In this document: piece after piece, positions 1-32,100 of the stretch
Layout: every line of letters starts with the position of its first letter
How positions within the stretch are numbered: the first letter of the stretch is position 1
From: Taiwanofungus camphoratus
Taxonomy: Eukaryota; Basidiomycota; Agaricomycetes; Polyporales; Taiwanofungaceae
Direction of reading: 5' to 3'
DNA length: 64,000 nt
Assembly (NCBI GenBank): GCA_003999685.1
Contig: CP021229.1
Location: 1 to 64,000, forward strand
Program-made: the position numbers and the translations under genes
The notes under the pieces: model-generated
Seen by the model: only the letters and a program-made list of their open reading frames with translations
Database searches by the model: none
Told to the model about the DNA's origin: nothing

Positions 1-79
1 AACCTAACCTAACCTAACCTAACCTAACCTAACCTAACCTAACCTAACCTAACCTAACCTAACCCTAACCTAACCCTAA
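1..79. repeat. Terminal telomere repeat, mainly CCTAA/TTAGG
   Basis: The window opens with about 12 perfect AACCT units, then two CCCTAA hexamers mixed with pentamers. The C-rich strand reads 5' to 3' from the left edge, as expected at a left chromosome end. Fungi usually have TTAGGG, so a mostly pentameric TTAGG tract is unusual. It runs directly into the middle of a Penelope-like ORF at about position 80. Confidence 0.95.
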
Positions 80-676
80 GATGCGAATGATGGCGTACTT
101 GTAATTAAGTCGCAATTTAACCCTTCATGGGATTCTTTCGATATTCATGAATTAATGACACGAGTTACCGGATCTTGGGTGGAGTCTTTGAGTTTCTTCA
201 AAAACTTCTTTTCGGCGAGTTGGGAAAACTCGGCCGCTCCGATTTTCGATTATTCGGCTGGGGGTTCGCGGGATGCGACCCTATCCGGCACAGTTCAGAC
301 CACGCTTGAGGAGTGGTGGGATCCCGCCCGAGTAGCCCAGCGCAAGCTGTCGCGCGAAACGGCGGCTGCTTCGGCAGCAGCAGATCGTGCCGCCGCTGAA
401 GCCCGGCGGTCTGATCAAATCTCTAACCTGGCGGCGGTCGTCCATGATAACCGCGCAGAAGAGGGCTGGGTATGGACTGGGCGGTACCTAAGGAAACCCA
501 CCGGATTTATTGAGGCGGAGAAGGTTGCAGACCTTTCCCAACTCGGATTCTTAGACAAGCGCTGGCTTGTGTCTCGAAAGCGGGAAACCAATTTCGCAGA
601 CTTAGCAAGTAAATGGCGCAGAAGTGTTATTAATGCCCAAAGTGCGGATGACGTACTTCTGGAAATGGATATATAA
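80..676 (+). mobile_element. 5'-truncated Penelope-like element A, fused to the telomere
   Basis: Only the last 198 or so codons of the family A reverse transcriptase ORF remain, in frame from position 80 to the stop at 674-676. The sequence matches 16101-16697, the end of A2 in the next block, including the A2-type codon GTT where A1 has GTC near 162. It is therefore the cut end of a third 16,021-bp block. Telomere repeats start directly at the break, with a G shared at the junction. A terminal deletion healed by telomere addition, or a 5'-truncated insertion, would both give this structure. Confidence 0.9.
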
Positions 677-866
677 ACTGTTAAGTCAGTTTGATTAGCA
701 TCGGTTACATCAGGTGTAACGTTATCTTAGTGTGTTGGTGTATTAGGGTTGTCTGTTCAAACCAGACCTAACCTAACCCTAACCTAACCTAACCTAACCT
801 AACCGAACCTAACCTAACCTAACCTAACCTAACCTAACGCTAATCCTAACCTAACCTAACCTAACC
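677..866 (+). other. 3' UTR of family A: terminal hairpin and CCTAA tract
   Basis: The 3' UTR ends in a hairpin (743-781): TTAGGGTT and GTCTG on the 5' arm, loop TTCAAAC, then CAGAC and telomere-complement CTAACCTAACC on the 3' arm. A CCTAA tract follows, carrying fixed variants (CCGAACC, CGCTAATCC) that recur in the other A copies. A second small hairpin GTTACA...TGTAAC lies near 702-718. Confidence 0.85.
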
Positions 867-1737
867 GCCGGACTTACCCAGTCCTGCGCTTAGGGTTGCC
901 TTAAAATAGATAGGCGCCTTACGTGTCACGTGATATGTTCGGCACTTAGTACGGACCGGCCCTTCACTGCGGCCCGGTGCGCGCCGTCCCCGCATGCTAG
1001 CGGAGCGCGCGTTAACTACTATGGTCCCCAGCGCCCCTCTGCTGTGTTAGTCCATGATCTGGTGATCTGTGGGTTGTAACATGCTAGAGCACGGTGCGGC
1101 AACTTGCTGGACGCGGTCCTATTGAGTATCCTTCCCCCGCCCCGCATGGCTCGGACAGGGTGCTCACGGGGATTCCCAGGTTTGTGCCATGACATGATGC
1201 TTCCTCAGTGGTCCACGCTGCCCTTAGTAGACGCCCGGAAAAGCGGCCCGGTCACATGATCGGTGCGGTACCGGCTAATTTGTTCCTATCTATACCCGGC
1301 TCGGATTAACCTCCGGCCCGGGCTTCCTATCTGTTATCTCGGATCTTGAGCCTAGGCTTGCGATCCGGATTCTAATCTTAATCAGATGACTCTGACATCT
1401 GATCAGTAATGGTGTCTAGGCGAATCTAGACAATGATGATTGCTCATCGCTGACTGATTAGGATAGGAGGGAGAGACGTGATTCGCTCCCACCTACAACC
1501 CTTTGCCCTGGTTCGGTCAAACTGACTTAGTCACCGGCCCCCTGGCCATGACTCAACCATAAGCGTGACTTTGGTTGAACTTGGTTATAAGCGACGCTAG
1601 TGCTCTGATGAGACTTAGTCGAAATTAGCCGTCCGATAGCGATATCGGGCTAATTAGTACTAGCTTCCTCTAAGCCTCCCCCCTGCCCTGCACTCGCAGC
1701 CCTTGTAGTGTTGATACATAGACCTCCTAACCTAACC
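867..1737 (+). repeat. pLTR of A1, upstream copy
   Basis: About 870 bp, bounded by CCTAACC on the left and CCTCCTAACCTAACC on the right. It is rich in inverted repeats: 1381-1403 (ATCAGATG/CATCTGAT), 1413-1432 (TGTCTAG/CTAGACA), 1469-1490 (GGGAG/CTCCC), 1553-1578 (TCAACCA/TGGTTGA). A hammerhead ribozyme follows. Several of these have a covarying partner in family B. Confidence 0.88.
1596..1664 (+). ncRNA. Hammerhead ribozyme, pLTR A1 upstream
   Basis: All core elements are present. Stem I pairs GCTAGTGCT with AGTACTAGC (one G-U). Core CTGATGA is followed by stem II GAC-TTA-GTC and GAAA. Stem III pairs ATTAGC with GCTAAT and extends as CCGATA-GCGA-TATCGG with a GNRA loop. Predicted cleavage is after position 1655 (AUU). 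Hammerheads in pLTRs are known for Penelope-like elements; here one would trim the RNA 5' end and separate tandem transcripts. Confidence 0.94.
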
Positions 1738-1920
1738 AGCCAACACCTCCAAACTGTCTCTCATACCGCATCTCGGTTTTCGACGGCGCTATCGTGTTCT
1801 GCCACCGACACCTCCGCCCGTCAACCCGATCCAGGAATACCGACTGCTCGCCCTCTGCTTCGCTCGGTGCCCAATCTCCTTTCATTTTCTCCCTCCTGAC
1901 GCACCTTGCGCTTGCTTACA

Positions 1921-4900
1921 ATGGCCAATCGCCTACCTCGTCCTGGATCCACCCGTTCGACTTCCGCAGGACCAGGTGGAGCATCACTTCGCGCCGCTAT
2001 TGCGCGGAACCTTGCTCCCCCCTCGTTGGCTTATGCCATGGGAGCGACGTCACTTGAGACTATTGCCGATGAGTTCCGCGCCGTCCTTTCAGCTGAAACA
2101 TTTGACACCGTATTATCAGTCGTGCCTCTCGTATACCGGGAGGTACTCCGCCCGGTTCTGGCTAGCATTGCGGAAGCAAAGGAACGCTGCGTTTCTTTGT
2201 CGAAGCAAGTGGGTGAGCTCGAGGCTCATCTTGCCAGCGGTTCCCTTCCGCCCCAGTTACAAGGCATGGGGGAACCCGTTTTCCAGTCTGCGAAAGCATG
2301 GCTGGAAACACACCCGGCGGAACCAGGGGCTCTTGCGGAGAAATTTAAAACGTTTCGCCGCGAAGCACTCGCTTTAGCCATTGCGCAGAAGCGTGCTGAG
2401 CTCTCGTTCTTCGAGGGCGCGCTGGACCCTACTACCATGTTGGGGAAGGCGCGCGACGTGGTCGACACTCAGTGGGCTGCGATCTCACAAGGATCGCGGG
2501 TCCCTAAGTGGAGAACCTCTCTTGACGGTAACGTCGAGATTGAGGGTTGGCAGAACGACCCCGTCCTTGAGTCGGAACACAAGCGATTCGTCGCTGTGCT
2601 CCCCCGCTTTTGCTTTCGTGTCGTGAACATTCGCGAATCACAGTTAGCTCATGCGGCGACTCGAGCCAGTGCGAAGAGTGCCCTTAAAGCAGTGGCGGAG
2701 GTGGAGATGAGCGACACCACCGAGAACCCCGCTGCTTTAAAGAAACTGATTGACGATGCGGTTGATCGTCGGTTGAAAGGTGAGGGCACCTCGAAGAACG
2801 TAAAACAACAGGTCAGTTTTGTACACGGTTCAGTACCTAAAGACTTACCTGGCGCCACCCTCTCTCGTATTCTAGAAGGGCAAAGGCAAGGCGCCAAATC
2901 GTTCGGCGCGCATGAGCACAGGAGGACGCCCTCCCAAAGCTCCGCAGCGCGCGGCAAAGCAGAAGCAGGCCGCTTCGTCGAAGAAAGCTTCGACGAAGAA
3001 GAACAAAGGGAAAGGGAAAGGGAGACCGAATTGATACGGTGTGTCCTTCGGTCGCGACTCCGCTTCTCGCAACCTTCCACTTACCCTGATTGCATACTTG
3101 ATCTTCCTACACCAGTCGGGGCACGCACCCTCCTTTACTTTGCACCGGCGGCTTTAGTCGAGGCACAGAGGTTCCGGACTTGGGTTCATGTTGGCGACGG
3201 TGTTAGTTTACCTGCGGACATCAGTATACATATTTCTTGCGGACTTAAGTACATGCTGTACGCTCGCCCGTCAGGCGAGTTAGTTCAAAACGCTTATGAT
3301 GACTTTTGTGAACGTGTACGATGGAGAGTACACTTTGCCTGTAAACAAAAGATCCTTGAGCGGCAAGGGATTAGTCAACCACCATATGATCCTGACTACG
3401 ACTTGAGATTAAAGCGCGATAGCAACGCGCCTCAAGCCAGCCAATATATCGAACTTGGTCTTAAACGCGGGCAAACATACGTCACTGAATTCATACGCAA
3501 TGTCGTACCCGGTTTGAAAGCCAGAAGTCGCCCTAATCGACTTGTGGACCTGGACAAAGTTCGCCTCTGGTTGGATGAGCATAACTACCTCATCCTCCAA
3601 ACGGATAAGAACCTCGGTGCTGCTGTAGTCACAAGGGAATGGTTCATTAATGGTTGCAACTTACTTCTATCGAATACGGCTGACTATCAGGAAATTAATC
3701 CTGGTCAGCGACAGATGTACTTAGAAAAGGTTACTAAGCGGGTTAAGGAGTTAAGCGATTGGGTCGAAGGGGCTATGCCTCACGATCAGACACTCCAGTT
3801 AGCCAAATACCTTCGGTCTAAATGTCCCGAGAGCGAGTTGGATGAGCCTAAGGTTCCCATCTTCTATGGTATCCCAAAAATCCATAAGACACCAGTGAAG
3901 ATGCGGCCTATTGTGCCCTGTCACTCATGCGCTCAAGGCCCCGCGGCTAAAGTAGTATCCAAGTTGTTGAAACCTATTATAGAGGCTGAGCCCTTTATTA
4001 TACATGGCAGCAAAGACCTTGCTGGTAAGTTAGCAACGGTTAAAACACTAAAATACAAAAAGTATTGGCTTGTGGCCGGCGACGTTGTCGCTTTCTACCC
4101 CAATGTACCCCTCAGAGAATGCGTAGGCATTGTATCTAAATTGTACATCAGTCATCCACTGGGTAGTCAATCCACGGACCACCCCGAATTTTACAACGCC
4201 TTGTTTATTCGGTGTATGCAATCGGCCAATTACGATCTAATAGTTGACTTCAACGGTCACACATTTCTTCAAAAGCGTGGATTAGCAATGGGTGTGGCGT
4301 GTTCGCCCGACCTTGCTAATCTATATGGATGCCATTTTGAAAATAAAGTCTGGCCTTCTGGGCAGGTTAGCCCACCCTTTCTTTATTATGGGCGGTACAT
4401 CGATGATGTATTTGCTATCGTTGAAGCAGGTAGTGCAGCTGAGGCACTTGAACTCTGCACCAGTCGTATTTCTTACACTGGCTGTACTATAACATGGGAA
4501 GTGTCGGAATGGGCAACGCCGTTCCTTGACATGCTTATTTATATTGACCCCGTAACCAACCGGGTGGAACATAAGCCGTATCGGAAGGCACTTAACCATC
4601 ATGAAAGAATACCATGGATATCTCACCATCCAAAGGACGTTAAAAAAGGCACGTTCATTGGAGAGATGAGCCGTTTAGCCACGCTAAGTTCTAAGTTGGA
4701 ACACTACTTAGATGCCCTTAAAGGGCTTGTCGATTTGTACATCGGCCGTGGTTATCCTCCTGCTCTGGTTATTGCATGGCTTGATTCACATAAAGCAGTA
4801 CGCTGGGCGAAACGTTTGGAAACTAAACAAACTTCGACCAAAGCGGCGGATGCGAATGATGGCGTACTTGTAATTAAGTCGCAATTTAACCCTTCATGGG

Positions 4901-5445
4901 ATTCTTTCGATATTCATGAATTAATGACACGAGTCACCGGATCTTGGGTGGAGTCTTTGAGTTTCTTCAAAAACTTCTTTTCGGCGAGTTGGGAAAACTC
5001 GGCCGCTCCGATTTTCGATTATTCGGCTGGGGGTTCGCGGGATGCGACCCTATCCGGCACAGTTCAGACCACGCTTGAGGAGTGGTGGGATCCCGCCCGA
5101 GTAGCCCAGCGCAAGCTGTCGCGCGAAACGGCGGCTGCTTCGGCAGCAGCAGATCGTGCCGCCGCTGAAGCCCGGCGGTCTGATCAAATCTCTAACCTGG
5201 CGGCGGTCGTCCATGATAACCGCGCAGAAGAGGGCTGGGTATGGACTGGGCGGTACCTAAGGAAACCCACCGGATTTATTGAGGCGGAGAAGGTTGCAGA
5301 CCTTTCCCAACTCGGATTCTTAGACAAGCGCTGGCTTGTGTCTCGAAAGCGGGAAACCAATTTCGCAGACTTAGCAAGTAAATGGCGCAGAAGTGTTATT
5401 AATGCCCAAAGTGCGGATGACGTACTTCTGGAAATGGATATATAA
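1921..5445 (+). CDS. Penelope-like reverse transcriptase, family A1 (1174 aa), endonuclease-less
   Basis: ATG at 1921 has a good context (ACAATGG); an in-frame TTG further upstream is not a likely eukaryotic start. RT motifs appear in Penelope order: TDKNLGAAVV (561-570), FYGIPKIHK (648-656), AGDVVAFYPNVPL with catalytic D721, RGLAMGVACSPDLANLYG (from 786) and RYIDDVFAIV (825-834) with D828 and D829. Then come TPFLDMLIYIDP, HKPYRKA and a GYPPALV thumb motif. The first 550 residues match no domain I recognise; they include a possible coiled coil (about 85-110) and a Glu/Arg-rich stretch. The last 200 residues lack GIY-YIG or another nuclease motif, as in Athena and Coprina elements. A conserved 64-nt intron-like segment lies inside the ORF (2812-2875). 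The ORF is intact. Confidence 0.93.
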   Translation: MANRLPRPGSTRSTSAGPGGASLRAAIARNLAPPSLAYAMGATSLETIADEFRAVLSAETFDTVLSVVPLVYREVLRPVLASIAEAKERCVSLSKQVGELEAHLASGSLPPQLQGMGEPVFQSAKAWLETHPAEPGALAEKFKTFRREALALAIAQKRAELSFFEGALDPTTMLGKARDVVDTQWAAISQGSRVPKWRTSLDGNVEIEGWQNDPVLESEHKRFVAVLPRFCFRVVNIRESQLAHAATRASAKSALKAVAEVEMSDTTENPAALKKLIDDAVDRRLKGEGTSKNVKQQVSFVHGSVPKDLPGATLSRILEGQRQGAKSFGAHEHRRTPSQSSAARGKAEAGRFVEESFDEEEQRERERETELIRCVLRSRLRFSQPSTYPDCILDLPTPVGARTLLYFAPAALVEAQRFRTWVHVGDGVSLPADISIHISCGLKYMLYARPSGELVQNAYDDFCERVRWRVHFACKQKILERQGISQPPYDPDYDLRLKRDSNAPQASQYIELGLKRGQTYVTEFIRNVVPGLKARSRPNRLVDLDKVRLWLDEHNYLILQTDKNLGAAVVTREWFINGCNLLLSNTADYQEINPGQRQMYLEKVTKRVKELSDWVEGAMPHDQTLQLAKYLRSKCPESELDEPKVPIFYGIPKIHKTPVKMRPIVPCHSCAQGPAAKVVSKLLKPIIEAEPFIIHGSKDLAGKLATVKTLKYKKYWLVAGDVVAFYPNVPLRECVGIVSKLYISHPLGSQSTDHPEFYNALFIRCMQSANYDLIVDFNGHTFLQKRGLAMGVACSPDLANLYGCHFENKVWPSGQVSPPFLYYGRYIDDVFAIVEAGSAAEALELCTSRISYTGCTITWEVSEWATPFLDMLIYIDPVTNRVEHKPYRKALNHHERIPWISHHPKDVKKGTFIGEMSRLATLSSKLEHYLDALKGLVDLYIGRGYPPALVIAWLDSHKAVRWAKRLETKQTSTKAADANDGVLVIKSQFNPSWDSFDIHELMTRVTGSWVESLSFFKNFFSASWENSAAPIFDYSAGGSRDATLSGTVQTTLEEWWDPARVAQRKLSRETAAASAAADRAAAEARRSDQISNLAAVVHDNRAEEGWVWTGRYLRKPTGFIEAEKVADLSQLGFLDKRWLVSRKRETNFADLASKWRRSVINAQSADDVLLEMDI
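2812..2875 (+). other. Putative retained intron (64 nt) inside the A1 ORF, opening a basic alternative tail
   Basis: Donor CAG|GTCAGT, acceptor TATTCTAG|AAG, candidate branch site CTTAC. The segment is open in the RT frame, so retention yields the 1174-aa protein. Removal (64 nt, not a multiple of 3) moves translation into another frame: 297 codons upstream plus a 52-codon Lys/Arg/Ala/Gly-rich tail (2876-3031) that stops at TGA 3032-3034, about 349 aa in all. The tail contains MSTGGRPPK. Family B keeps the same intron length, tail length and tail sequence. Splicing itself is inferred, not seen. Confidence 0.7.
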
Positions 5446-5635
5446 ACTGTTAAGTCAGTTTGATTAGCATCGGTTACATCAGGTGTAACGTTATCTTAGT
5501 GTGTTGGTGTATTAGGGTTGTCTGTTCAAACCAGACCTAACCTAACCCTAACCTAACCTAACCTAACCTAACCGAACCTAACCTAACCTAACCTAACCTA
5601 ACCTAACGCTAATCCTAACCTAACCTAACCTAACC
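5446..5635 (+). other. 3' UTR of A1: terminal hairpin and CCTAA tract
   Basis: Same layout as at 677-866. The hairpin lies at about 5512-5550, with TTAGGGTT on one arm and CCTAACC on the other around a GTCTG/CAGAC stem. The CCTAA tract keeps the CCGAACC and CGCTAATCC variants. Confidence 0.85.
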
Positions 5636-6505
5636 GCCGGACTTACCCAGTCCTGCGCTTAGGGTTGCCTTAAAATAGATAGGCGCCTTACGTGTCACGT
5701 GATATGTTCGGCACTTAGTACGGACCGGCCCTTCACTGCGGCCCGGTGCGCGCCGTCCCCGCATGCTAGCGGAGCGCGCGTTAACTACTATGGTCCCCAG
5801 CGCCCCTCTGCTGTGTTAGTCCATGATCTGGTGATCTGTGGGTTGTAACATGCTAGAGCACGGTGCGGCAACTTGCTGGACGCGGTCCTATTGAGTATCC
5901 TTCCCCCGCCCCGCATGGCTCGGACAGGGTGCTCACGGGGATTCCCAGGTTTGTGCCATGACATGATGCTTCCTCAGTGGTCCACGCTGCCCTTAGTAGA
6001 CGCCCGGAAAAGCGGCCCGGTCACATGATCGGTGCGGTACCGGCTAATTTGTTCCTATCTATACCCGGCTCGGATTAACCTCCGGCCCGGGCTTCCTATC
6101 TGTTATCTCGGATCTTGAGCCTAGGCTTGCGATCCGGATTCTAATCTTAATCAGATGACTCTGACATCTGATCAGTAATGGTGTCTAGGCGAATCTAGAC
6201 AATGATGATTGCTCATCGCTGACTGATTAGGATAGGAGGGAGAGACGTGATTCGCTCCCACCTACAACCCTTTGCCCTGGTTCGGTCAAACTGACTTAGT
6301 CACCGGCCCCCTGGCCATGACTCAACCATAAGCGTGACTTTGGTTGAACTTGGTTATAAGCGACGCTAGTGCTCTGATGAGACTTAGTCGAAATTAGCCG
6401 TCCGATAGCGATATCGGGCTAATTAGTACTAGCTTCCTCTAAGCCTCCCCCCTGCCCTGCACTCGCAGCCCTTGTAGTGTTGATACATAGACCTCCTAAC
6501 CTAAC
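5636..6505 (+). repeat. pLTR of A1, downstream copy
   Basis: Near-identical to 867-1737. It ends in CCTCCTAACCTAAC and abuts the family B pLTR with no other spacer, so B was the neighbour when A1 attached, or A1 attached to its end. Confidence 0.88.
6365..6433 (+). ncRNA. Hammerhead ribozyme, pLTR A1 downstream
   Basis: Same sequence and fold as 1596-1664. Cleavage here and in the upstream pLTR would release an RNA of about 4.77 kb spanning leader, ORF, 3' UTR and most of one pLTR. Confidence 0.93.
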
Positions 6506-7369
6506 TGAAGGCGCTACCGCACCTTCTCCATTTGGTAGTTTTGGGAAATAAGACGCTCGTCACGTGACTTGCCCGAAAGGGCCGGACATGTGATCAGCAT
6601 CCAGGCACGGACCGGTTGAGCCGCGAGGCTGGACTGGTCTGGGCACTACCTAGTTATGGTCACCAGCGCCCCTCTGCTGTGTTAGTCCATGATCCGGTGA
6701 TCTGTGAGGTGTAACATGCTATGGCACGGTGCGGCAACTTGCCGGACGCGGTCCTAGTGAATATCCCGCCCCCGCCCCGCATGGCTCGGTGAGGGTGTTC
6801 CTAGGGATCCTCAGGTTTGTGCCGTGACATGATGCTTCCTCAGTGGTCCACGCTGCCCTTATCTAGGCGCCCGGAAACCGGACCAGTCATGTGACTCGGT
6901 CGGCACCGGCCCGGATTGTTCTATTCCCACCCTTATCATCCTAACCGATGATAAAGGGATCTCTTATCTATGAGTCATATCAAATGACTCCTTATCTTTA
7001 CATCTGATTGTTATCTCTGATCAGGTGGCGGTATTGGTAAAGGCTAGGGCGTTCTAGCCTGCCTTTTGTCGGCCCGCTGATAAGAGATAAGAGAAATAGC
7101 TCTAATGTGATTGGAGCTCACCACTACCTCATGGCCTGGTTGGTCAAATAGAATCAGTCATCGGCCTCTGGCCGATGACTCAGGGTCAATCATCTGATGA
7201 CCCTGAACCATCGGTTAAAAGTACGACGAGAGTACTGATGAGCTCCTTAGCGAAACAAGTTGGTATCTGGCGACAGATACCTTTGTTTACTCTTGTCTTC
7301 CCTATTTCTCTCATCTCTTACTACGCTCGCCCGCCTATCGGCGGTCTCGCTCCACCTCCTAACCTAACC
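6506..7369 (+). repeat. pLTR of B, upstream copy
   Basis: 864 bp. Hairpins correspond in order to those of A but with different paired bases: 7041-7060 (AGGCTAG/CTAGCCT), 7098-7118 (AGCTC/GAGCT), a TCATCGGCC/GGCCGATGA stem near 7158-7178, and 7180-7206 (TCAGGGTCA/TGACCCTGA). Confidence 0.87.
7225..7297 (+). ncRNA. Hammerhead ribozyme, pLTR B upstream
   Basis: Stem I pairs GACGAGAGTA with TACTCTTGTC (10 bp, one G-U). Core CTGATGA, stem II GCT-CCTT-AGC, GAAA. Stem III pairs ACAAG with TTTGT and extends as GGTATCTG-GCGA-CAGATACC. Predicted cleavage is after 7287 (GUU). Every stem differs from family A while pairing is kept. Confidence 0.94.
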
Positions 7370-7512
7370 AACACCGCCGCCAAGCTGTCTCTCTACATCC
7401 GCCATCGCAAGCCCCTCACCTGGTGCACGACTGTCGGTATTTTCTGTGACGACTGCAATCGATTCTACAAGCCCAAGTCTGAGTCGATCTACTACCGTCC
7501 TCCGCCGTTCGC

Positions 7513-10500
7513 ATGGCTCCACCTTCCACACCCCGTGCTTCTTCCGTCGGTCCCGGGTCTGCCTCACTTAGGTCTGCAATTGCCCGGAATCTTGCCCCCG
7601 CGAGCCTATCGTACGCTATCGGGGCGGCATCGCTTGAGACTGTTGCCGATGAGTTCCGAGCCATTTTTCACGCAGAGACCATTGACCAAGTCTTCTCAGC
7701 TATACCTCTCGTCTATCGAGAGGTGCTCCGTCCGGTGTTGGTTAGCGTTGCGGAAGCGAAGGAACGTTCTGTTTCTTTGCAGAAGCAATTGGGTGACCTT
7801 GAGTCGCACAAAGCTAACGGTTCGCTCCCCCACCAGTTACAGGGGCTCAGCGAACCCGTCTTCCAGAGCTCAAAACTCTGGCTCGAGACGTCGCCGGCGG
7901 AACCCGCAGCTCTGATAACCGAGTTCCAATCCTTCCGTCGGAAGGCTCTTGACTTGGCCATCGCCCAAAAGCGAGCAGAGCTCGCGTTCTTTGATCGCGC
8001 ATTGGACCCGACAGCAATGTTGGAGAAAATGCGGACAGTGGTTGACGAACAATGGGCGCGCATTAGCCAGTCTAGTCGCGTCCCTGTTTGGAGGGAAACT
8101 ATCGATGGCGGTCAACGCCTAGATACGTGGACCAATGACCCTGTCCTCGAGTCTGAGTACAAGCGATTCGTCGCCGTGCTCCCACGCTTTGCCTTCCGGG
8201 TAGTTAATATCCGTGAATCACAACTGGCACAAGCCGCGGCTCGAGCGCAAGCAAAGTCTGCCGTCAAGGCTGCAGCGGAGGTCGAGATGGGTGACGCCAC
8301 CGAGAACCCTGCAGCTTTGAAAAAGCTGATCGATGATGCGGTTGATCGTCGTCTCAAAGGCGAAGGCAGCTCAAAGAACGCGGTAAGTTTTGTACATGGT
8401 TCTGTTCCAAAAAGCTTACCAGGCGCCGCTCTATCACGTATTTTAGGGAGCAAAGGCAAAGGCGCCAAAACGATCGGTGCGCATGAGTACGGGAGGACGT
8501 CCTCCCAAACCTCCGCAGCGCAAGGCCAAGCAGCAGCAGGCCGCTTCCTCTGCGAAGAAGCAGAAGAAGACCAAAGATCGGAAAGGCAAAGGGAGAGCGA
8601 AATAATCCGGTCAGTTATTCGCTCGCGTCTCCGCTTCTCCCAGCCGTCGTCTTACCCAGACAGTATTCTAATGTTACCCTTGCCTGTTGCAGCTCGCACC
8701 CTCCTTTATTTCGCTCCGGTTGCTTTAGTCGAAGCGGCGAGGTTCAGAAGCTGGGTGCACTGTGGCGAGGATGTTTTATTACCGCCGGACATTAGCATAC
8801 ACATATCTTGCGGTCTGAAATATATGTTGTACTCCTCCCCGAGCGGGGAACTCATTCAAACGGCGTTCAATGATTTCTGCGAACGAATACGCTGGCGAGT
8901 GTATTTTAAAGTTAAACAGATTCAACTTGAACGGCAAGGTATAAGTCAACCACCTTATGATCCTGACTACGACCTTAGGGCTAAGCGGGACTCGTCCGCC
9001 CCTAGGGCCACACAATATATCGAAAACGGTCTTAAACGCGGGCAAACTTACGTCACTGATTACATACGTAGTGTCGTACCCGGTTTGAAAGCTAGAAGCC
9101 ACCCTAATCGGCTTGTAGACCTGGACCGCGTTCGCCTCTGGTTGAACGAGCATAACTACCTCGTTCTCCAAACGGATAAGAACCTTGGTGCGGCAGTAGT
9201 CACAAGGGAATGGTTCATTACTGGTTGCATGAATCTTCTGTCAAATACGGCTGACTATCAGGAAATAAACCCTGGTCAGCGGCAGATGTATTTAGAAAAA
9301 GTTACAAAGCGGGTTAAGGAGTTAAGCGATTGGGTCGAAGGGGCTTTGCCTAACGATCAGACACTCCAATTAGCCAAATTCCTCCGGTCTAAATGTCCCG
9401 AGAGCGAGTTAGAGGAACCAAAGGTACCTATCTTCTACGGGATTCCAAAAATCCATAAATCCCCAGTAAAGATGCGACCTATTGTTCCATGTCACTCATG
9501 CGCTCAAGGGCCCGCGGCTAAAGTTGTATCTAAACTGTTGAAACCTATCATAGAGGCTGAGCCCTTTATTATACATGGATCAAAACATCTTGCGATCCAG
9601 TTAGCAAAGGTTAAAACGTTAAAATGGAAAAAGTATTGGTTAGTGGCTGGCGACGTTGTCGCTTTCTACCCTAATGTACCACTCAGAGATTGTGTTGGCA
9701 TTGTGTCCAAACTATACACAAGACATCCTCTGGGTAGTCAGTCTATGGACCAGCCCCAGTTTTATAATGCATTGTTTATCAGATGCATGCAAACGGCCAA
9801 TTACGATTTAATTGTCGACTTCAACGGTCGTACTTACTTTCAAAAAAGAGGATTAGCTATGGGTGTGGCATGCTCGCCTGACTTAGCTAATCTCTACGGA
9901 TGCCATTTCGAAAATCAAGTATGGCCCGGTGGACAGGTTACTCCACCGTTCTTATATTATGGCCGATACATTGATGATGTATTTGCCATAGTTGAAGCAG
10001 GTAGTGCGGCAGAAGCTCTAGAAGCCTGCCAAAGTCGTATATCTTATGATGGCTGCACTATAACATGGGAAGTGTCTGAATGGGCGACGCCATTCTTAGA
10101 CATGCTTATTTATATTGACCCCGTTTCTAACCGGGTGGAACATAAGCCATATCGGAAAGCACTTAACCATCACGAACGGATTCCATGGGTATCTCACCAC
10201 CCAAAGGACGTGAAAAAAGGCACGTTCATTGGGGAGATGAGCCGTTTAGCTACGCTAAGTTCTAAGTTGGAACACTACTTAGATGCCCTTCATGGGCTTG
10301 TCGACCTGTATGTCGGCCGTGGCTATCCCCCTGCTCTGGTTACTTCCTGGCTCGACTCGCATAAAGCGGTACGCTGGAAAGAACGTCTTGGAAAACCAAA
10401 ATCTTCGACCGAAGATGCAGACCAAGTTGAGGGCGTACTTGCGATTAAGTCGAAGTTCAACCCCTCATGGGATCAGTTTGATGTTCATGAATTAATGACA

Positions 10501-11016
10501 CGTGTTACGGAATCGTGGGTGAAAGACTTATCTTTCTTTAAGTCTTTCTTTTCGGCGAGTTGGGAAAACTCGGCCGCTCCGATCTTTGAGTATTCGTCTG
10601 GGGGTCCTAAGGATGCGACCCTATCCAGCACAGTTCAGACCACGCTTGAGGAGTGGTGGGATCCCGCCCGAGTAGCCCAGCGCAAGCTGTCGCGCGAAAC
10701 GGCGGCTGCGGAAGCAGCAGCAGAACTCGCCGCCGCTGAAGCCAGGCGGTCCGATCAAATCTCGAAACCGGTGGCAGTTGTCCATGACAACCGCGCGGAC
10801 GAGGGCTGGGTTTGGACTGGGCGGTACCTGAAGAAACCCAACGGATTCATCGAAGCGGAGAAGGTCCCTGACCTTTCCCAACTCGGATTCTTAGACAAGC
10901 GCTGGCTTGTGTCACGGAAAAGGGAAACCAATTTCGCTGACTTAGCAAGCAAGTGGCGCAGAAGTGTAATTAATGCCCAAAGTACAGATGATGTACTATT
11001 GGAAATGGACATATAA
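7513..11016 (+). CDS. Penelope-like reverse transcriptase, family B (1167 aa), endonuclease-less
   Basis: ATG at 7513 begins MAPPSTPRAS. The protein aligns end to end with family A, seven residues shorter before the RT domain. RT motifs: TDKNLGAAVV (554-563), FYGIPKIHK, AGDVVAFYPNVPL with D714, RGLAMGVACSPDLANLYG, and RYIDDVFAIV with D821 and D822. There is no nuclease domain. Most A/B differences in the RT core are third-position or conservative, which suggests both families were kept under selection. Stretches of the 3' ORF (10550-10760) are almost identical in DNA to family A, unlike the rest, which suggests exchange between families. The ORF is intact and has a 64-nt intron-like segment at 8383-8446. 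Confidence 0.93.
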   Translation: MAPPSTPRASSVGPGSASLRSAIARNLAPASLSYAIGAASLETVADEFRAIFHAETIDQVFSAIPLVYREVLRPVLVSVAEAKERSVSLQKQLGDLESHKANGSLPHQLQGLSEPVFQSSKLWLETSPAEPAALITEFQSFRRKALDLAIAQKRAELAFFDRALDPTAMLEKMRTVVDEQWARISQSSRVPVWRETIDGGQRLDTWTNDPVLESEYKRFVAVLPRFAFRVVNIRESQLAQAAARAQAKSAVKAAAEVEMGDATENPAALKKLIDDAVDRRLKGEGSSKNAVSFVHGSVPKSLPGAALSRILGSKGKGAKTIGAHEYGRTSSQTSAAQGQAAAGRFLCEEAEEDQRSERQRESEIIRSVIRSRLRFSQPSSYPDSILMLPLPVAARTLLYFAPVALVEAARFRSWVHCGEDVLLPPDISIHISCGLKYMLYSSPSGELIQTAFNDFCERIRWRVYFKVKQIQLERQGISQPPYDPDYDLRAKRDSSAPRATQYIENGLKRGQTYVTDYIRSVVPGLKARSHPNRLVDLDRVRLWLNEHNYLVLQTDKNLGAAVVTREWFITGCMNLLSNTADYQEINPGQRQMYLEKVTKRVKELSDWVEGALPNDQTLQLAKFLRSKCPESELEEPKVPIFYGIPKIHKSPVKMRPIVPCHSCAQGPAAKVVSKLLKPIIEAEPFIIHGSKHLAIQLAKVKTLKWKKYWLVAGDVVAFYPNVPLRDCVGIVSKLYTRHPLGSQSMDQPQFYNALFIRCMQTANYDLIVDFNGRTYFQKRGLAMGVACSPDLANLYGCHFENQVWPGGQVTPPFLYYGRYIDDVFAIVEAGSAAEALEACQSRISYDGCTITWEVSEWATPFLDMLIYIDPVSNRVEHKPYRKALNHHERIPWVSHHPKDVKKGTFIGEMSRLATLSSKLEHYLDALHGLVDLYVGRGYPPALVTSWLDSHKAVRWKERLGKPKSSTEDADQVEGVLAIKSKFNPSWDQFDVHELMTRVTESWVKDLSFFKSFFSASWENSAAPIFEYSSGGPKDATLSSTVQTTLEEWWDPARVAQRKLSRETAAAEAAAELAAAEARRSDQISKPVAVVHDNRADEGWVWTGRYLKKPNGFIEAEKVPDLSQLGFLDKRWLVSRKRETNFADLASKWRRSVINAQSTDDVLLEMDI
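8383..8446 (+). other. Putative retained intron (64 nt) inside the B ORF
   Basis: Donor GCG|GTAAGT is perfect consensus; acceptor TATTTTAG|GGA; candidate branch site CTTAC. The length is exactly that in A. Splicing joins 290 codons to a 52-codon basic tail (8447-8602, stop TAA 8603-8605), about 342 aa. A and B tails share APxRSxRMSTGGRPPKxPQR and then Lys/Gln/Ala repeats. In the tail start, A/B base changes are silent in the tail frame but change residues in the RT frame. Confidence 0.72.
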
Positions 11017-11185
11017 ATCGGTTGATTCGATTTGTTTAGCTTAAGGTTATCGGTGTAACTACCTTCTGCGTTTATTCGCATTTAGGGTTGTCTGTTCAAA
11101 CCAGACCTAACCTAACCCTAACCTAACCTAACCTAACCTAACCTAACCTAACCTAACGCTAAATCCTAACCTAACCTAACCTAAC
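11017..11185 (+). other. 3' UTR of B: terminal hairpin and CCTAA tract
   Basis: The first 60 nt differ from A, but the final hairpin (about 11082-11121) is identical to A from AGGGTTGTCTG through CAGACCTAACC. Such local identity between otherwise diverged UTRs points to a required 3' recognition or priming structure. The CCTAA tract has the variant CGCTAAATCC, one base longer than in A. Confidence 0.86.
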
Positions 11186-12049: not shown

Positions 12050-12116
12050 TAACCGAACCTAACCTAACCTAACCTAACCTAACCTAACGCTAATCCTAAC
12101 CTAACCTAACCTAACC

Positions 12117-12989: not shown

Positions 12990-13172
12990 AGCCAACACCT
13001 CCAAACTGTCTCTTATACCGCATCTCGGTTTTCGACGGCGCTATCGTGTTCTGCCACCGACACCCCCGCCCGTCAACCCGATCCAGGAATACCGACTGCT
13101 CGCCCTTTGCTTCGCTCGGTGCCCGATCTCTTTTCATTTTCTCCCTCCTGACGCACCCTGCGCTTGCTTACA

Positions 13173-16697: not shown

Positions 16698-16887
16698 ACT
16701 GTTAAGTCAGTTTGATTAGCATCGGTTACATCAGGTGTAACGTTATCTTAGTGTGTTGGTGTATTAGGGTTGTCTGTTCAAACCAGACCTAACCTAACCC
16801 TAACCTAACCTAACCTAACCTAACCGAACCTAACCTAACCTAACCTAACCTAACCTAACGCTAATCCTAACCTAACCTAACCTAACC
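16698..16887 (+). other. 3' UTR of A2: terminal hairpin and CCTAA tract
   Basis: Identical layout to 677-866, hairpin at about 16764-16802. Confidence 0.85.
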
Positions 16888-17941: not shown

Positions 17942-20900
17942 ATGGCCAATCGCCTACCTCGTCCTGGATCCACCCGTTCGACTTCCGCAGGACCAGGTGG
18001 AGCATCACTTCGCGCCGCTATTGCGCGGAACCTTGCTCCCCCCTCGTTGGCTTATGCCATGGGAGCGACGTCACTTGAGACTATTGCCGATGAGTTCCGC
18101 GCCGTCCTTTCAGCTGAAACATTTGACACCGTATTATCAGTCGTGCCTCTCGTATACCGGGAGGTACTCCGCCCGGTTCTGGCTAGCATTGCGGAAGCAA
18201 AGGAACGCTGCGTTTCTTTGTCGAAGCAAGTGGGTGAGCTCGAGGCTCATCTTGCCAGCGGTTCCCTTCCGCCCCAGTTACAAGGCATGGGGGAACCCGT
18301 TTTCCAGTCTGCGAAAGCATGGCTGGAAACACACCCGGCGGAACCAGGGGCTCTTGCGGAGAAATTTAAAACGTTTCGCCGCGAAGCACTCGCTTTAGCC
18401 ATTGCGCAGAAGCGTGCTGAGCTCTCGTTCTTCGAGGGCGCGCTGGACCCTACTACCATGTTGGGGAAGGCGCGCGACGTGGTCGACACTCAGTGGGCTG
18501 CGATCTCACAAGGATCGCGGGTCCCTAAGTGGAGAACCTCTCTTGACGGTAACGTCGAGATTGAGGGTTGGCAGAACGACCCCGTCCTTGAGTCGGAACA
18601 CAAGCGATTCGTCGCTGTGCTCCCCCGCTTTTGCTTTCGTGTCGTGAACATTCGCGAATCACAGTTAGCTCATGCGGCGACTCGAGCCAGTGCGAAGAGT
18701 GCCCTTAAAGCAGTGGCGGAGGTGGAGATGAGCGACACCACCGAGAACCCCGCTGCTTTAAAGAAACTGATTGACGATGCGGTTGATCGTCGGTTGAAAG
18801 GTGAGGGCACCTCGAAGAACGTAAAACAACAGGTCAGTTTTGTACACGGTTCAGTACCTAAAGACTTACCTGGCGCCACCCTCTCTCGTATTCTAGAAGG
18901 GCAAAGGCAAGGCGCCAAATCGTTCGGCGCGCATGAGCACAGGAGGACGCCCTCCCAAAGCTCCGCAGCGCGCGGCAAAGCAGAAGCAGGCCGCTTCGTC
19001 GAAGAAAGCTTCGACGAAGAAGAACAAAGGGAAAGGGAAAGGGAGACCGAATTGATACGGTGTGTCCTTCGGTCGCGACTCCGCTTCTCGCAACCTTCCA
19101 CTTACCCTGATTGCATACTTGATCTTCCTACACCAGTCGGGGCACGCACCCTCCTTTACTTTGCACCGGCGGCTTTAGTCGAGGCACAGAGGTTCCGGAC
19201 TTGGGTTCATGTTGGCGACGGTGTTAGTTTACCTGCGGACATCAGTATACATATTTCTTGCGGACTTAAGTACATGCTGTACGCTCGCCCGTCAGGCGAG
19301 TTAGTTCAAAACGCTTATGATGACTTTTGTGAACGTGTACGATGGAGAGTACACTTTGCCTGTAAACAAAAGATCCTTGAGCGGCAAGGGATTAGTCAAC
19401 CACCATATGATCCTGACTACGACTTGAGATTAAAGCGCGATAGCAACGCGCCTCAAGCCAGCCAATATATCGAACTTGGTCTTAAACGCGGGCAAACATA
19501 CGTCACTGAATTCATACGCAATGTCGTACCCGGTTTGAAAGCCAGAAGTCGCCCTAATCGACTTGTGGACCTGGACAAAGTTCGCCTCTGGTTGGATGAG
19601 CATAACTACCTCATCCTCCAAACGGATAAGAACCTCGGTGCTGCTGTAGTCACAAGGGAATGGTTCATTAATGGTTGCAACTTACTTCTATCGAATACGG
19701 CTGACTATCAGGAAATTAATCCTGGTCAGCGACAGATGTACTTAGAAAAGGTTACTAAGCGGGTTAAGGAGTTAAGCGATTGGGTCGAAGGGGCTATGCC
19801 TCACGATCAGACACTCCAGTTAGCCAAATACCTTCGGTCTAAATGTCCCGAGAGCGAGTTGGATGAGCCTAAGGTTCCCATCTTCTATGGTATCCCAAAA
19901 ATCCATAAGACACCAGTGAAGATGCGGCCTATTGTGCCCTGTCACTCATGCGCTCAAGGCCCCGCGGCTAAAGTAGTATCCAAGTTGTTGAAACCTATTA
20001 TAGAGGCTGAGCCCTTTATTATACATGGCAGCAAAGACCTTGCTGGTAAGTTAGCAACGGTTAAAACACTAAAATACAAAAAGTATTGGCTTGTGGCCGG
20101 CGACGTTGTCGCTTTCTACCCCAATGTACCCCTCAGAGAATGCGTAGGCATTGTATCTAAATTGTACATCAGTCATCCACTGGGTAGTCAATCCACGGAC
20201 CACCCCGAATTTTACAACGCCTTGTTTATTCGGTGTATGCAATCGGCCAATTACGATCTAATAGTTGACTTCAACGGTCACACATTTCTTCAAAAGCGTG
20301 GATTAGCAATGGGTGTGGCGTGTTCGCCCGACCTTGCTAATCTATATGGATGCCATTTTGAAAATAAAGTCTGGCCTTCTGGGCAGGTTAGCCCACCCTT
20401 TCTTTATTATGGGCGGTACATCGATGATGTATTTGCTATCGTTGAAGCAGGTAGTGCAGCTGAGGCACTTGAACTCTGCACCAGTCGTATTTCTTACACT
20501 GGCTGTACTATAACATGGGAAGTGTCGGAATGGGCAACGCCGTTCCTTGACATGCTTATTTATATTGACCCCGTAACCAACCGGGTGGAACATAAGCCGT
20601 ATCGGAAGGCACTTAACCATCATGAAAGAATACCATGGATATCTCACCATCCAAAGGACGTTAAAAAAGGCACGTTCATTGGAGAGATGAGCCGTTTAGC
20701 CACGCTAAGTTCTAAGTTGGAACACTACTTAGATGCCCTTAAAGGGCTTGTCGATTTGTACATCGGCCGTGGTTATCCTCCTGCTCTGGTTATTGCATGG
20801 CTTGATTCACATAAAGCAGTACGCTGGGCGAAACGTTTGGAAACTAAACAAACTTCGACCAAAGCGGCGGATGCGAATGATGGCGTACTTGTAATTAAGT

Positions 20901-23533: not shown

Positions 23534-26500
23534 ATGGCTCCACCTTCCACACCCCGTGCTTCTTCCGTCGGTCTCGGGTCTGCCTCACTTAGGTCTGCAA
23601 TTGCCCGGAATCTTGCCCCCGCGAGCCTATCGTACGCTATCGGGGCGGCATCGCTTGAGACTGTTGCCGATGAGTTCCGAGCCATTTTTCACGCAGAGAC
23701 CATTGACCAAGTCTTCTCAGCTATACCTCTCGTCTATCGAGAGGTGCTCCGTCCGGTGTTGGTTAGCGTTGCGGAAGCGAAGGAACGTTCTGTTTCTTTG
23801 CAGAAGCAATTGGGTGACCTTGAGTCGCACAAAGCTAACGGTTCGCTCCCCCACCAGTTACAGGGGCTCAGCGAACCCGTCTTCCAGAGCTCAAAACTCT
23901 GGCTCGAGACGTCGCCGGCGGAACCCGCAGCTCTGATAACCGAGTTCCAATCCTTCCGTCGGAAGGCTCTTGACTTGGCCATCGCCCAAAAGCGAGCAGA
24001 GCTCGCGTTCTTTGATCGCGCATTGGACCCGACAGCAATGTTGGAGAAAATGCGGACAGTGGTTGACGAACAATGGGCGCGCATTAGCCAGTCTAGTCGC
24101 GTCCCTGTTTGGAGGGAAACTATCGATGGCGGTCAACGCCTAGATACGTGGACCAATGACCCTGTCCTCGAGTCTGAGTACAAGCGATTCGTCGCCGTGC
24201 TCCCACGCTTTGCCTTCCGGGTAGTTAATATCCGTGAATCACAACTGGCACAAGCCGCGGCTCGAGCGCAAGCAAAGTCTGCCGTCAAGGCTGCAGCGGA
24301 GGTCGAGATGGGTGACGCCACCGAGAACCCTGCAGCTTTGAAAAAGCTGATCGATGATGCGGTTGATCGTCGTCTCAAAGGCGAAGGCAGCTCAAAGAAC
24401 GCGGTAAGTTTTGTACATGGTTCTGTTCCAAAAAGCTTACCAGGCGCCGCTCTATCACGTATTTTAGGGAGCAAAGGCAAAGGCGCCAAAACGATCGGTG
24501 CGCATGAGTACGGGAGGACGTCCTCCCAAACCTCCGCAGCGCAAGGCCAAGCAGCAGCAGGCCGCTTCCTCTGCGAAGAAGCAGAAGAAGACCAAAGATC
24601 GGAAAGGCAAAGGGAGAGCGAAATAATCCGGTCAGTTATTCGCTCGCGTCTCCGCTTCTCCCAGCCGTCGTCTTACCCAGACAGTATTCTAATGTTACCC
24701 TTGCCTGTTGCAGCTCGCACCCTCCTTTATTTCGCTCCGGTTGCTTTAGTCGAAGCGGCGAGGTTCAGAAGCTGGGTGCACTGTGGCGAGGATGTTTTAT
24801 TACCGCCGGACATTAGCATACACATATCTTGCGGTCTGAAATATATGTTGTACTCCTCCCCGAGCGGGGAACTCATTCAAACGGCGTTCAATGATTTCTG
24901 CGAACGAATACGCTGGCGAGTGTATTTTAAAGTTAAACAGATTCAACTTGAACGGCAAGGTATAAGTCAACCACCTTATGATCCTGACTACGACCTTAGG
25001 GCTAAGCGGGACTCGTCCGCCCCTAGGGCCACACAATATATCGAAAACGGTCTTAAACGCGGGCAAACTTACGTCACTGATTACATACGTAGTGTCGTAC
25101 CCGGTTTGAAAGCTAGAAGCCACCCTAATCGGCTTGTAGACCTGGACCGCGTTCGCCTCTGGTTGAACGAGCATAACTACCTCGTTCTCCAAACGGATAA
25201 GAACCTTGGTGCGGCAGTAGTCACAAGGGAATGGTTCATTACTGGTTGCATGAATCTTCTGTCAAATACGGCTGACTATCAGGAAATAAACCCTGGTCAG
25301 CGGCAGATGTATTTAGAAAAAGTTACAAAGCGGGTTAAGGAGTTAAGCGATTGGGTCGAAGGGGCTTTGCCTAACGATCAGACACTCCAATTAGCCAAAT
25401 TCCTCCGGTCTAAATGTCCCGAGAGCGAGTTAGAGGAACCAAAGGTACCTATCTTCTACGGGATTCCAAAAATCCATAAATCCCCAGTAAAGATGCGACC
25501 TATTGTTCCATGTCACTCATGCGCTCAAGGGCCCGCGGCTAAAGTTGTATCTAAACTGTTGAAACCTATCATAGAGGCTGAGCCCTTTATTATACATGGA
25601 TCAAAACATCTTGCGATCCAGTTAGCAAAGGTTAAAACGTTAAAATGGAAAAAGTATTGGTTAGTGGCTGGCGACGTTGTCGCTTTCTACCCTAATGTAC
25701 CACTCAGAGATTGTGTTGGCATTGTGTCCAAACTATACACAAGACATCCTCTGGGTAGTCAGTCTATGGACCAGCCCCAGTTTTATAATGCATTGTTTAT
25801 CAGATGCATGCAAACGGCCAATTACGATTTAATTGTCGACTTCAACGGTCGTACTTACTTTCAAAAAAGAGGATTAGCTATGGGTGTGGCATGCTCGCCT
25901 GACTTAGCTAATCTCTACGGATGCCATTTCGAAAATCAAGTATGGCCCGGTGGACAGGTTACTCCACCGTTCTTATATTATGGCCGATACATTGATGATG
26001 TATTTGCCATAGTTGAAGCAGGTAGTGCGGCAGAAGCTCTAGAAGCCTGCCAAAGTCGTATATCTTATGATGGCTGCACTATAACATGGGAAGTGTCTGA
26101 ATGGGCGACGCCATTCTTAGACATGCTTATTTATATTGACCCCGTTTCTAACCGGGTGGAACATAAGCCATATCGGAAAGCACTTAACCATCACGAACGG
26201 ATTCCATGGGTATCTCACCACCCAAAGGACGTGAAAAAAGGCACGTTCATTGGGGAGATGAGCCGTTTAGCTACGCTAAGTTCTAAGTTGGAACACTACT
26301 TAGATGCCCTTCATGGGCTTGTCGACCTGTATGTCGGCCGTGGCTATCCCCCTGCTCTGGTTACTTCCTGGCTCGACTCGCATAAAGCGGTACGCTGGAA
26401 AGAACGTCTTGGAAAACCAAAATCTTCGACCGAAGATGCAGACCAAGTTGAGGGCGTACTTGCGATTAAGTCGAAGTTCAACCCCTCATGGGATCAGTTT

Positions 26501-29193: not shown

Positions 29194-32100
29194 ATGGCCA
29201 ATCGCCTACCTCGTCCTGGATCCACCCGTTCGACTTCCGCAGGACCAGGTGGAGCATCACTTCGCGCCGCTATTGCGAGGAACCTTGCTCCCCCCTCGTT
29301 GGCTTATGCCATGGGAGCGACGTCACTTGAGACTATTGCCGATGAGTTCCGCGCCGTCCTTTCAGCTGAAACATTTGACACCGTATTATCAGTCGTGCCT
29401 CTCGTATACCGGGAGGTACTCCGCCCGGTTCTGGCTAGCATTGCGGAAGCGAAGGAACGCTGCGTTTCTTTGTCGAAGCAAGTGGGTGAGCTCGAGGCTC
29501 ATCTTGCCAGCGGTTCCCTTCCGCCCCAGTTACAAGGCATGGGGGAACCCGTTTTCCAGTCTGCGAAAGCATGGCTGGAAACACACCCGGCGGAACCAGG
29601 GGCTCTTGCGGAGAAATTTAAAACGTTTCGCCGCGAAGCACTCGCTTTAGCCATAGCGCAAAAGCGTGCTGAGCTCTCGTTCTTCGAGGGCGCGTTGGAC
29701 CCGACTACTATGTTGGGGAAGGCGCGCGACGTGGTCGACACTCAGTGGGCCGCGATCTCACAAGGATCGCGGGTCCCTAAGTGGAGAACCTCTCTTGACG
29801 GGAACGTCGAGATTGAGGGTTGGCAGAACGACCCCGTCCTTGAGTCGGAACACAAGCGATTCGTCGCTGTGCTCCCGCGGTTTTGCTTCCGTGTCGTGAA
29901 TATTCGCGAATCACAGCTAGCACATGCCGCGACTCGAGCCAATGCGAAGAGTGCCCTTAAGGCAGTAGCGGAGGTGGAGATGAGCGACACCACCGAGAAT
30001 CCCGCTGCCTTAAAGAAACTGATCGACGATGCGGTTGATCGTCGGCTGAAAGGTGAGGGCACCTCGAAGAACGTTAAACAGCAGGTTAGTTTTGTACACG
30101 GTTCAGTACCAAAAGACTTACCTGGCGCCACCCTCTCTCGTATTCTAGAAGGGCAAAGGCAAGGCGCCAAATCGTTCGGCGCGCATGAGCACAGGAGGAC
30201 GCCCTCCCAAAGCTCCGCAGCGCGCGGCAAAGCAGAAGCAGGCCGCTTCGTCGAAGAAGGTTTCGACGAAGAAGAACAAAGGGAAAGGGAAAGGGAGACC
30301 GAATTGATACGGTGTGTCCTTCGGTCGCGACTCCGCTTCTCGCAACCCTCTACTTACCCTGATTGTATACTCGATCTTCCTACACCAGTCGGGGCACGCA
30401 CCCTCCTCTACTTTGCACCGGCGGCTTTAGTCGAAGCACAGAGGTTCCGGACTTGGGTTCATGTTGGCGACGGTGTTAGTTTACCTGCGGACATCAGTAT
30501 ACATATTTCTTGCGGACTTAAGTACATGCTGTACGCTCGACCTTCAGGCGAGTTAGTTCAAAACGCTTATGATGACTTTTGTGAACGTGTACGATGGAGA
30601 GTACACTTTGCCTGTAAACAAAAGATCCTTGAGCGGCAAGGAATAAGTCAACCACCTTACGATCCTGACTACGACTTGAGGCTTAAACGCGATAGCAACG
30701 CGCCTCAAGCCAGCCAATATATCGAACTTGGTCTTAAACGCGGGCAAACATACGTCACTGAATTCATACGCACTGTCGTACCCGGTTTGAAAGCTAGAAG
30801 TCGCCCTAATCGACTTGTAGACCTGGATAAAGTTCGCCTCTGGTTGGATGAGCATAACTACCTCATCCTCCAAACGGATAAGAACCTCGGCGCTGCTGTA
30901 GTCACAAGGGAATGGTTCATAAATGGTTGCAATTTGCTCTTGTCGAATACGGCTGACTATCAGGAAATTAATCCTGGTCAGAGACAAATGTATCTAGAAA
31001 AGGTTACTAAGCGGGTTAAGGAGTTAAGCGATTGGGTCGAAGGGGCTATGCCTCACGATCAGACACTCCAGTTAGCCAAATTTCTTCGGTCAAAATGTCC
31101 CGAGAGCGAGTTGGAAGAGCCTAAGGTTCCCATCTTCTACGGTATCCCAAAAATCCATAAGACACCCGTGAAGATGCGGCCTATTGTGCCCTGTCACTCA
31201 TGCGCTCAAGGCCCCGCGGCTAAAGTAGTATCCAAGTTGTTGAAACCTATCATAGAGGCAGAACCCTTTATTATACATGGCAGTAAAGATCTTGCTGCCA
31301 AGTTAGCAACGGTTAAAACACTAAAATATAAAAAGTATTGGCTTGTGGCCGGCGACGTGGTCGCTTTCTACCCCAATGTACCTCTCAGAGAATGCGTAGG
31401 CATTGTATCTAAACTGTACATTAGTCATCCATTGGGTAGTCAATCAACGGACCACCCCGAATTTTACAACGCCTTGTTTATTCGGTGTATGCAATCTGCC
31501 AATTACGATTTAATAGTTGACTTCAACGGTCACACATTTCTTCAAAAACGAGGGTTAGCTATGGGAGTGGCTTGTTCGCCCGACCTAGCTAATCTATATG
31601 GATGCCATTTTGAAAATAAAGTCTGGCCTTCTGGGCAGGTTAGCCCACCCTTTCTTTATTATGGGCGGTACATCGATGATGTATTTGCTATCGTTGAAGC
31701 AGGTAGTGCAGCTGAGGCACTTGAACTCTGCACCAGTCGTATTTCTTACACTGGCTGTACTATAACATGGGAAGTGTCGGAATGGGCAACGCCGTTCCTT
31801 GACATGCTTATTTATATTGACCCCGTAACCAACCGGGTGGAACATAAGCCGTATCGGAAGGCACTTAACCATCATGAAAGAATACCATGGATATCTCACC
31901 ATCCAAAGGACGTTAAAAAAGGCACGTTCATTGGAGAGATGAGCCGTTTAGCCACGCTAAGTTCTAAGTTGGAACACTACTTAGATGCCCTTAAAGGGCT
32001 TGTCGATTTGTACATCGGCCGTGGTTATCCTCCTGCTCTGGTTATTGCATGGCTTGATTCACATAAAGCAGTACGCTGGGCGAAACGTTTGGAAACTAAA

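Follow-up and report, generated by a model that had tools for sequence, protein, structure and literature searches.

Six copies of a retroelement lie at a contig end

We focused on the first 64 kb of contig C10 (1.74 Mb), in a genome of 33.2 Mb and 15 contigs. This whole stretch is termed the window. It contains six full-length elements, which belong to families A and B. In copy 1, a long reverse transcriptase (RT) frame comprises an N-domain, a linker and the RT. An intron-like segment follows the N-domain. A basic tail, in the +1 frame, overlaps the linker. The features are as follows.

1921..5445, + strand: RT frame of copy 1 (family A), unspliced; open frame encoding N-domain, linker and RT, 1174 aa
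1921..2811, + strand: exon 1 of copy 1, the shared N-domain, 297 codons
2812..2875, + strand: putative intron of copy 1, 64 nt, phase 0, GTCAGT...CTAG; coding in the RT frame (VSFVHGSVPKDLPGATLSRIL)
2876..3034, + strand: basic tail of copy 1, 52 codons and TGA, +1 to the RT frame and overlapping the RT linker
7513..11016, + strand: RT frame of copy 2 (family B), open frame of 1167 aa with an RVT_1 match under the Pfam cut-off
7513..8382, + strand: exon 1 of copy 2 (family B), 290 codons
8383..8446, + strand: putative intron of copy 2 (family B), 64 nt, GTAAGT...TTAG
8447..8605, + strand: basic tail of copy 2 (family B), 52 codons and TAA
14064..14127, + strand: putative intron of copy 3 (family A variant), GTTAGT...TAG; ORF 13173-16697, tail 14128-14286
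18833..18896, + strand: putative intron of copy 4 (family A); ORF 17942-21466, tail 18897-19055
24404..24467, + strand: putative intron of copy 5 (family B); ORF 23534-27037, tail 24468-24626
30085..30148, + strand: putative intron of copy 6 (family A variant); ORF 29194-32718, tail 30149-30307

Exon 1 of copy 1 has the motif VEMSD near its 3' end, and the N-domain can be aligned with those of relatives. By eye, AACCT runs separate the first copies in the window (bases 1-12000). The telomeric repeat, at positions 1-80 and between the first elements, is chiefly the 5-mer AACCT (TTAGG) with some AACCCT. This differs from TTAGGG, the telomeric repeat of most fungi. The window also carries a tandem duplication of 16,021 bp. 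Positions 80-17288 match the sequence 16,021 bases on, and identity runs from 80 to 7552 and from 7554 to 17288, that is, with one differing base. Three elements are present twice as a result. The duplication represents either recent amplification or a duplication made in assembly.

The elements fit a telomeric, endonuclease-deficient class

Querying the genome with the RT part yielded 51 matches, 44 of them near-complete and 7 partial, starting further in. Every match lies at most about 30.3 kb from a contig end, with its 5' end facing the tip, and 23 contig ends are involved. The A and B proteins had no GIY-YIG match in Pfam (E up to 10). Genome-wide, GIY-YIG was matched four times, always on contig C15. 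The RVT_1 matches of the copy 1 protein (residues 654-860, E=1.2e-4) and the family B protein (E=3.5e-6) were under the Pfam cut-off. Neither an integrase nor a protease was matched in the polyprotein (Pfam, E up to 10), which speaks against membership of the Copia superfamily. A profile of the whole protein had a single match among PDB sequences at E up to 0.01, the Drt3a RT (E 0.0028). The N-domain matched no family or solved sequence in Pfam, NCBIfam or PDB sequences (best PDB E 0.18). Hence, we use "Gag-like" below as an analogy.

Hammerhead-like cores (CTGATGAG...GAAA) are found outside the ORFs at 1589-1660, 6358-6429 and about 7231-7256, the third by eye. Their best Rfam score was 24.9 bits, for RAGATH-1-hammerhead (E=0.79; cut-off 56.3). 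No hammerhead was called at the Rfam gathering threshold; the core letters are present. Judged by position, orientation, telomeric repeats and lack of GIY-YIG, the elements fit endonuclease-deficient, telomere-associated Penelope-like elements, such as Athena (PMC3846280, in part) and Coprina.

An intron-like segment is retained in nearly all copies

The preliminary description placed a 64-nt GTNAGT...TAG segment at 2812-2875 and 8383-8446, and in copy 3. These coordinates are right and the segment is in phase 0. Copies 4-6 also carry it, so that it is found in all six full-length copies of the window. The description further held that the segment is open in the RT frame and that differences between families A and B are mostly silent there. 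Both points are borne out. The ORFs run through the segment to give 1174 or 1167 aa. Within its 21 codons the A/B differences fall 3/1/9 at RT codon positions 1/2/3, and 19 of 21 residues are kept. Removal of the segment gives products of 349 and 342 aa with a 52-codon basic tail and the same stop position in A and B, again as described. The A tail contains 13 K, 5 R and no D/E; the B tail contains 14 K, 6 R and one D/E.

We examined at the DNA level the 44 loci whose RT match is near-complete. Of these, 43 keep the donor, the acceptor and a tail of 52 or 53 codons, and none of the 43 has an RT-frame stop in the stretch. The remaining locus (L055) matches just the last ~41 bases of the region, its upstream part being missing. 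The 43 loci represent 20 distinct introns. At donor position +3, the one position left free in the search pattern, the bases are A (19 loci), C (17), T (6) and G (1). A pyrimidine at this position is weak for fungal introns, and 23 of 24 family A loci have C or T, a point against efficient use of the donor. These bases may tune splicing in family A. A genome search allowing up to 3 mismatches, with patterns that lacked a positive control, found no spliced DNA copy. Hence, the template that is copied would be the unspliced form.

Substitutions point to purifying selection on the tail frame

The preliminary description called for rates of change by codon position in both frames over the tail. 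Sorted by RT codon position 1/2/3, the A/B differences are 71/42/163 in exon 1 (290 codons) and 31/24/78 in the 150 codons past the tail. In the 52 tail codons they are 18/10/10. Changes at RT third positions thus number 241 in the 440 flank codons but 10 in the 52 tail codons, a significant drop (p=1.3e-6). Taken by itself, the increase at position 1 in the tail is not significant (p=0.09). The first 21 tail codons differ at 9/1/4. The later 31 codons differ at 9/9/6, with no position preference.

Within MSTGGRPPK, three A/B base changes had been said to be silent in the tail frame and to alter the RT product. Inspection by eye agrees, the RT residues being H/Y, R/G and P/S. Of the 39 sites that differ across all 52 codons, 14 are silent in the tail frame and 5 in the RT frame. 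In the first 21 codons, 8 of 14 differences leave the tail residue unchanged.

Copies of family A (24 loci) were also compared with one another. Their first 39 tail codons hold 16 polymorphic sites, at RT codon positions 11/3/2. The last 100 codons of exon 1 hold 57, at 4/4/49. The flip in position is significant (p=8e-8). Among 17 distinct family A tail variants, silent and changing variants number 12 and 5 in the tail frame, and 2 and 15 in the RT frame. The value of 12 has p=1e-4 if all changes are weighted alike and p=1.5e-3 if only transitions are considered. For the RT frame, the 2 silent variants are not a significant deficit (p=0.20 for all changes; 0.04 for transitions). Because the copies are related, these statistics count sites and not copies.

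We also simulated divergence under RT constraint only. Each simulation drew 38 changes, compared with 39 observed. Of 20000 sequences, 6811 kept the RT frame open. In one of these the tail was also open and reached or exceeded the 34/52 identities seen between A and B. On these comparisons, made between A and B and among family A copies, the tail is a reading frame constrained by purifying selection, most clearly in its first part. The overlying RT linker is tolerant.

Gene models from two other fungi contain a basic tail

A profile was made from the N-domains together with the A and B tails. It identified two proteins, P0121 and P0122, both of which are database gene models. P0121, from Lentinula edodes, has 365 aa and represents a cluster of 10 sequences. 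Its first 290 residues are identical to those of P0075, an L. edodes protein of 1160 aa with an RT; a basic tail comes after. This tail corresponds to the +1 frame of the P0075 linker for 57 consecutive residues (longest run in 300 shuffles, 12). Along the +1 diagonal 75 of 81 positions agree; the six exceptions are the first five, which precede the tail, and one inside it.

We tried GT-AG junctions of 30-129 nt, with donors from 8 codons before to 14 codons after the point of divergence, checking 40 residues. In this range, a single junction reproduces P0121. It removes 52 nt, is in phase 1 and has CAG or TAG as its acceptor. Both 52 and 64 are 1 mod 3. Hence, the frame relation is alike in L. 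edodes and in the A and B elements.

P0122, from Cubamyces lactineus, has 382 aa and likewise consists of an N-domain and a basic tail. The ends of the tails are DKGKGKAKASN in P0122, NKGKGKGRPN in A, DRKGKGRAK in B and NKGKGKKW in L. edodes. We also considered mimicry of histone H3, in which ARKSTGG would be matched in K9M-like fashion by ARMSTGG (A) or VRMSTGG (B). This candidate was rejected; the motif is absent from the L. edodes and C. lactineus tails.

Relatives show signs of a similar arrangement

A protein search with RT residues 520-1000 found 355 relatives, of which 120 were listed; most sources were taken to be metagenomes. Named sources among those listed include Bondarzewia, Fibroporia, Armillaria and Lentinula, which we take to be agaricomycetes. 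From these, the host of the present elements is probably an agaricomycete as well. The RT is 52% identical to the named Bondarzewia and Fibroporia proteins, and 47% identical to those of Armillaria and Lentinula. A search with the first 500 residues gave no matches. The TDKN[LI]G motif is missing from one of the 120 listed relatives; the residues preceding it number under 250 in 21 of them and at least 480 in 76. A scan of viral sequences for DNA of relatives found none. The corresponding scan of prokaryotes found one contig only, L041, with an RT 26% identical. This contig comes from a Candidatus Binatia MAG, and represents contamination or a very distant RT.

For 40 of the 120, the region from the VEMGD-type motif to the start of the RT was cut out automatically; the counts below cover these 40. 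The relatives were found through their RT, which favours open frames. In 36 of 40, V followed by S, R or C occurs after the motif (2000 shuffles: mean 14.7, highest 25); four lack it. With a narrower window, V[SRC] is present in 34 of 40 (5000 shuffles: mean 10.6, highest 20), the next being L[SRC] with 25 of 40. Codons for S, R and C share G at position 2 if serine is AGY. In that case, V[SRC] at the end of the N-domain would fit a GTNNG donor. In L. edodes the junction sits 3 codons upstream of the V-R site of P0075, which falls inside the intron. Hence, that model has its donor elsewhere than at V[SRC]. P0024, one of the relatives without V[SRC], has K-A-S after its VEMGD motif, residues that would be compatible with a GC donor (AAG|GCAAGT).

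Alternating [QEK][RGW] runs of at least 3 occur in the later half of the linker in 14 of 40 relatives (1000 shuffles: mean 0.3, highest 3). In the +1 frame such runs read as KGKGK-like. We inferred the +1 frames of relatives from the peptides, assuming equal codon use. For the 36 relatives with V[SRC], the K+R content is 0.293 in the +1 frame of the linker, 0.193 in the +2 frame and 0.185 in the N-domain. All 36 agree in direction: K+R codons are more frequent when the linker is read in +1 than in +2, and stops in this +1 reading are scarcer than in the N-domain. The composition of the linker could explain part of this richness. Hence, we give it less weight than the gene models.

Absence of tail-frame conservation in relatives had been named beforehand as evidence against the proposal. 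At the level of protein data, the proposal withstood this test (two gene models with N-domain and basic tail, 36 of 36 linkers). On the evidence at hand, the arrangement is probably shared with other agaricomycete elements, as far as sequence can indicate.

Two products probably arise from one message

The preliminary description proposed that the retained form yields the RT and that the spliced form yields a basic protein sharing the N-domain. The gene models and the selection on the tail frame support this proposal. We are fairly confident, from these sequence comparisons, that partial splicing lets a telomeric Penelope-like element lacking an endonuclease derive two products from a single message. 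Unspliced RNA would encode the N-domain, linker and RT, and would also serve as the template for reverse transcription onto chromosome ends. Spliced RNA would encode the N-domain and basic tail. By analogy with Gag or ORF1p, this product may coat the element RNA or bind telomeric DNA. A splice of such length excludes the RT, which would thus be made from unspliced RNA. Splicing destroys the RT frame; hence, the intron must often be retained if RT is to be produced. The splice ratio would then set the ratio of Gag-like protein to RT.

The explanation that best survives beside this one also takes splicing as the switch. It differs in that the short protein would act on telomeric chromatin or DNA, as an AT-hook-like or linker-histone-like factor, and not as a Gag-like one. 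The core motif of an AT-hook is R-G-R-P. Tails of A and B (GGRPPK) and of L. edodes (SGRPEK) contain a G-R-P core, the A and B tails are rich in K and R, and all 51 element matches are near contig ends. Against this, the C. lactineus tail has no G-R-P, and neither P0121 nor P0122 has an AT-hook match in Pfam. We rate a chromatin role as a minority possibility, and its odds overlap with those of the preferred explanation.

It is improbable that the segment is an ordinary intron, either a relic or spliced without use, with the tail a by-product of an RT linker rich in Q, E, R and G. Penelope-type elements are known to retain introns in their DNA copies, according to the portion of PMC3846280 consulted. 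Such a linker yields +1 K/R codons from composition alone, which weakens the peptide-based test, and the last 31 tail codons have no position preference in A/B changes. A by-product would nevertheless not account for the 12 silent and 5 changing tail variants in the tail frame, nor for the frame relation found again in L. edodes. RT constraint by itself matched the tail in 1 of 6811 simulations.

We give little credence to programmed ribosomal frameshifting as the route to the tail. A +1 shift would likewise join the N-domain to the tail, and frameshifts between Gag and Pol are common among retroelements, as stated in the part of PMC3735527 consulted. However, the acceptor TAG is a stop in the tail frame of both A and B, and B has a second tail-frame stop at the donor. 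Any shift is therefore confined to a few codons past the acceptor. The GTNAGT donor of 43 of 44 loci and the L. edodes GT-AG junction would be left unexplained. Finally, a 40-aa peptide translated from its own ATG (MSTGG...) with no splicing is very improbable: the best-kept part of the A and B tails does begin at this ATG, but conservation starts upstream of it (KAPxRSxR, both families), methionine is absent from the tails of L. edodes and C. lactineus, and donor and acceptor would have no explanation.

Comparison with known elements

Partial splicing of this kind has precedents among LTR elements. BARE1 of barley, in the Copia superfamily, has a single ORF with a 104-nt alternative intron; spliced RNA encodes Gag only and unspliced RNA the polyprotein (PMC3735527, in part). 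As in the element here, the intron is small, its removal shifts the frame and the spliced form gives the short product. BARE1 differs, according to the same portion, in being an LTR element whose shifted frame stops three residues past Gag, whereas the tail here has 52 codons and is selected and basic. In Arabidopsis, EVD (Ty1-Copia) makes a spliced shGAG RNA and an unspliced GAG-POL RNA (PMC8892269, in part). EVD also differs, being an LTR element in which, in that account, splicing is coupled to early polyadenylation. The copia element of Drosophila produces a spliced Gag-only RNA, as told in part of PMC3735527. There, ~2950 nt of pol are removed, compared with 64 nt and an overlapping tail here.

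The elements described here share with Copia, BARE1 and EVD an intron-like segment that lies between the shared N part and pol and is open in the pol frame. Splicing would also end the pol frame (64 and 52 nt, both 1 mod 3), here as predicted from sequence alone. The best reading, by analogy, is a switch between a Gag-like and a Gag-RT product through intron retention, as in copia, BARE1 and EVD.

The Penelope-like class has been described as coding RT in a single ORF. Athena-type telomeric elements resemble those here in their position at chromosome ends, outward 5' ends, lack of GIY-YIG and nearby telomeric repeats, and possibly in a hammerhead-like core (PMC3846280, in part). They differ in that no splice-made second protein was found for them among the literature matches listed, as far as the consulted portions go. 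The same portion of PMC3846280 notes that Penelope elements keep introns, for which an antisense template was proposed as the reason. A splice switch in a Penelope-like element was not found in print among the literature matches listed, and the consulted portions of PMC6431247, PMC11167929 and PMC7473861 mention no such switch. Provisionally, we regard the arrangement as a known expression strategy, here in variant form and in a class for which we found no description of it.

We lean towards a broader proposal. Fungal telomeric Penelope-like elements would make their Gag or ORF1p equivalent only via removal of a tiny intron, with a nucleic-acid-binding tail overlapping the RT linker. The arrangement would be ancestral to agaricomycete elements, and the level of splicing would set the balance of RNP and RT at telomeres. 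If true, the basic splice-made protein gives Penelope-like elements a Gag-like part, and splice-controlled Gag:Pol ratios arose outside LTR elements too. It would also offer a reason for the persistence of the intron in these copies. For annotation, the warning is that one locus can give two overlapping protein ends that look unrelated. The arrangement can be tested in ordinary laboratory mushrooms such as Lentinula edodes.

The host genome has a match to the telomerase RNA-binding domain at C6:759844-760231. Hence, telomerase and telomeric retroelements appear to coexist in this fungus.
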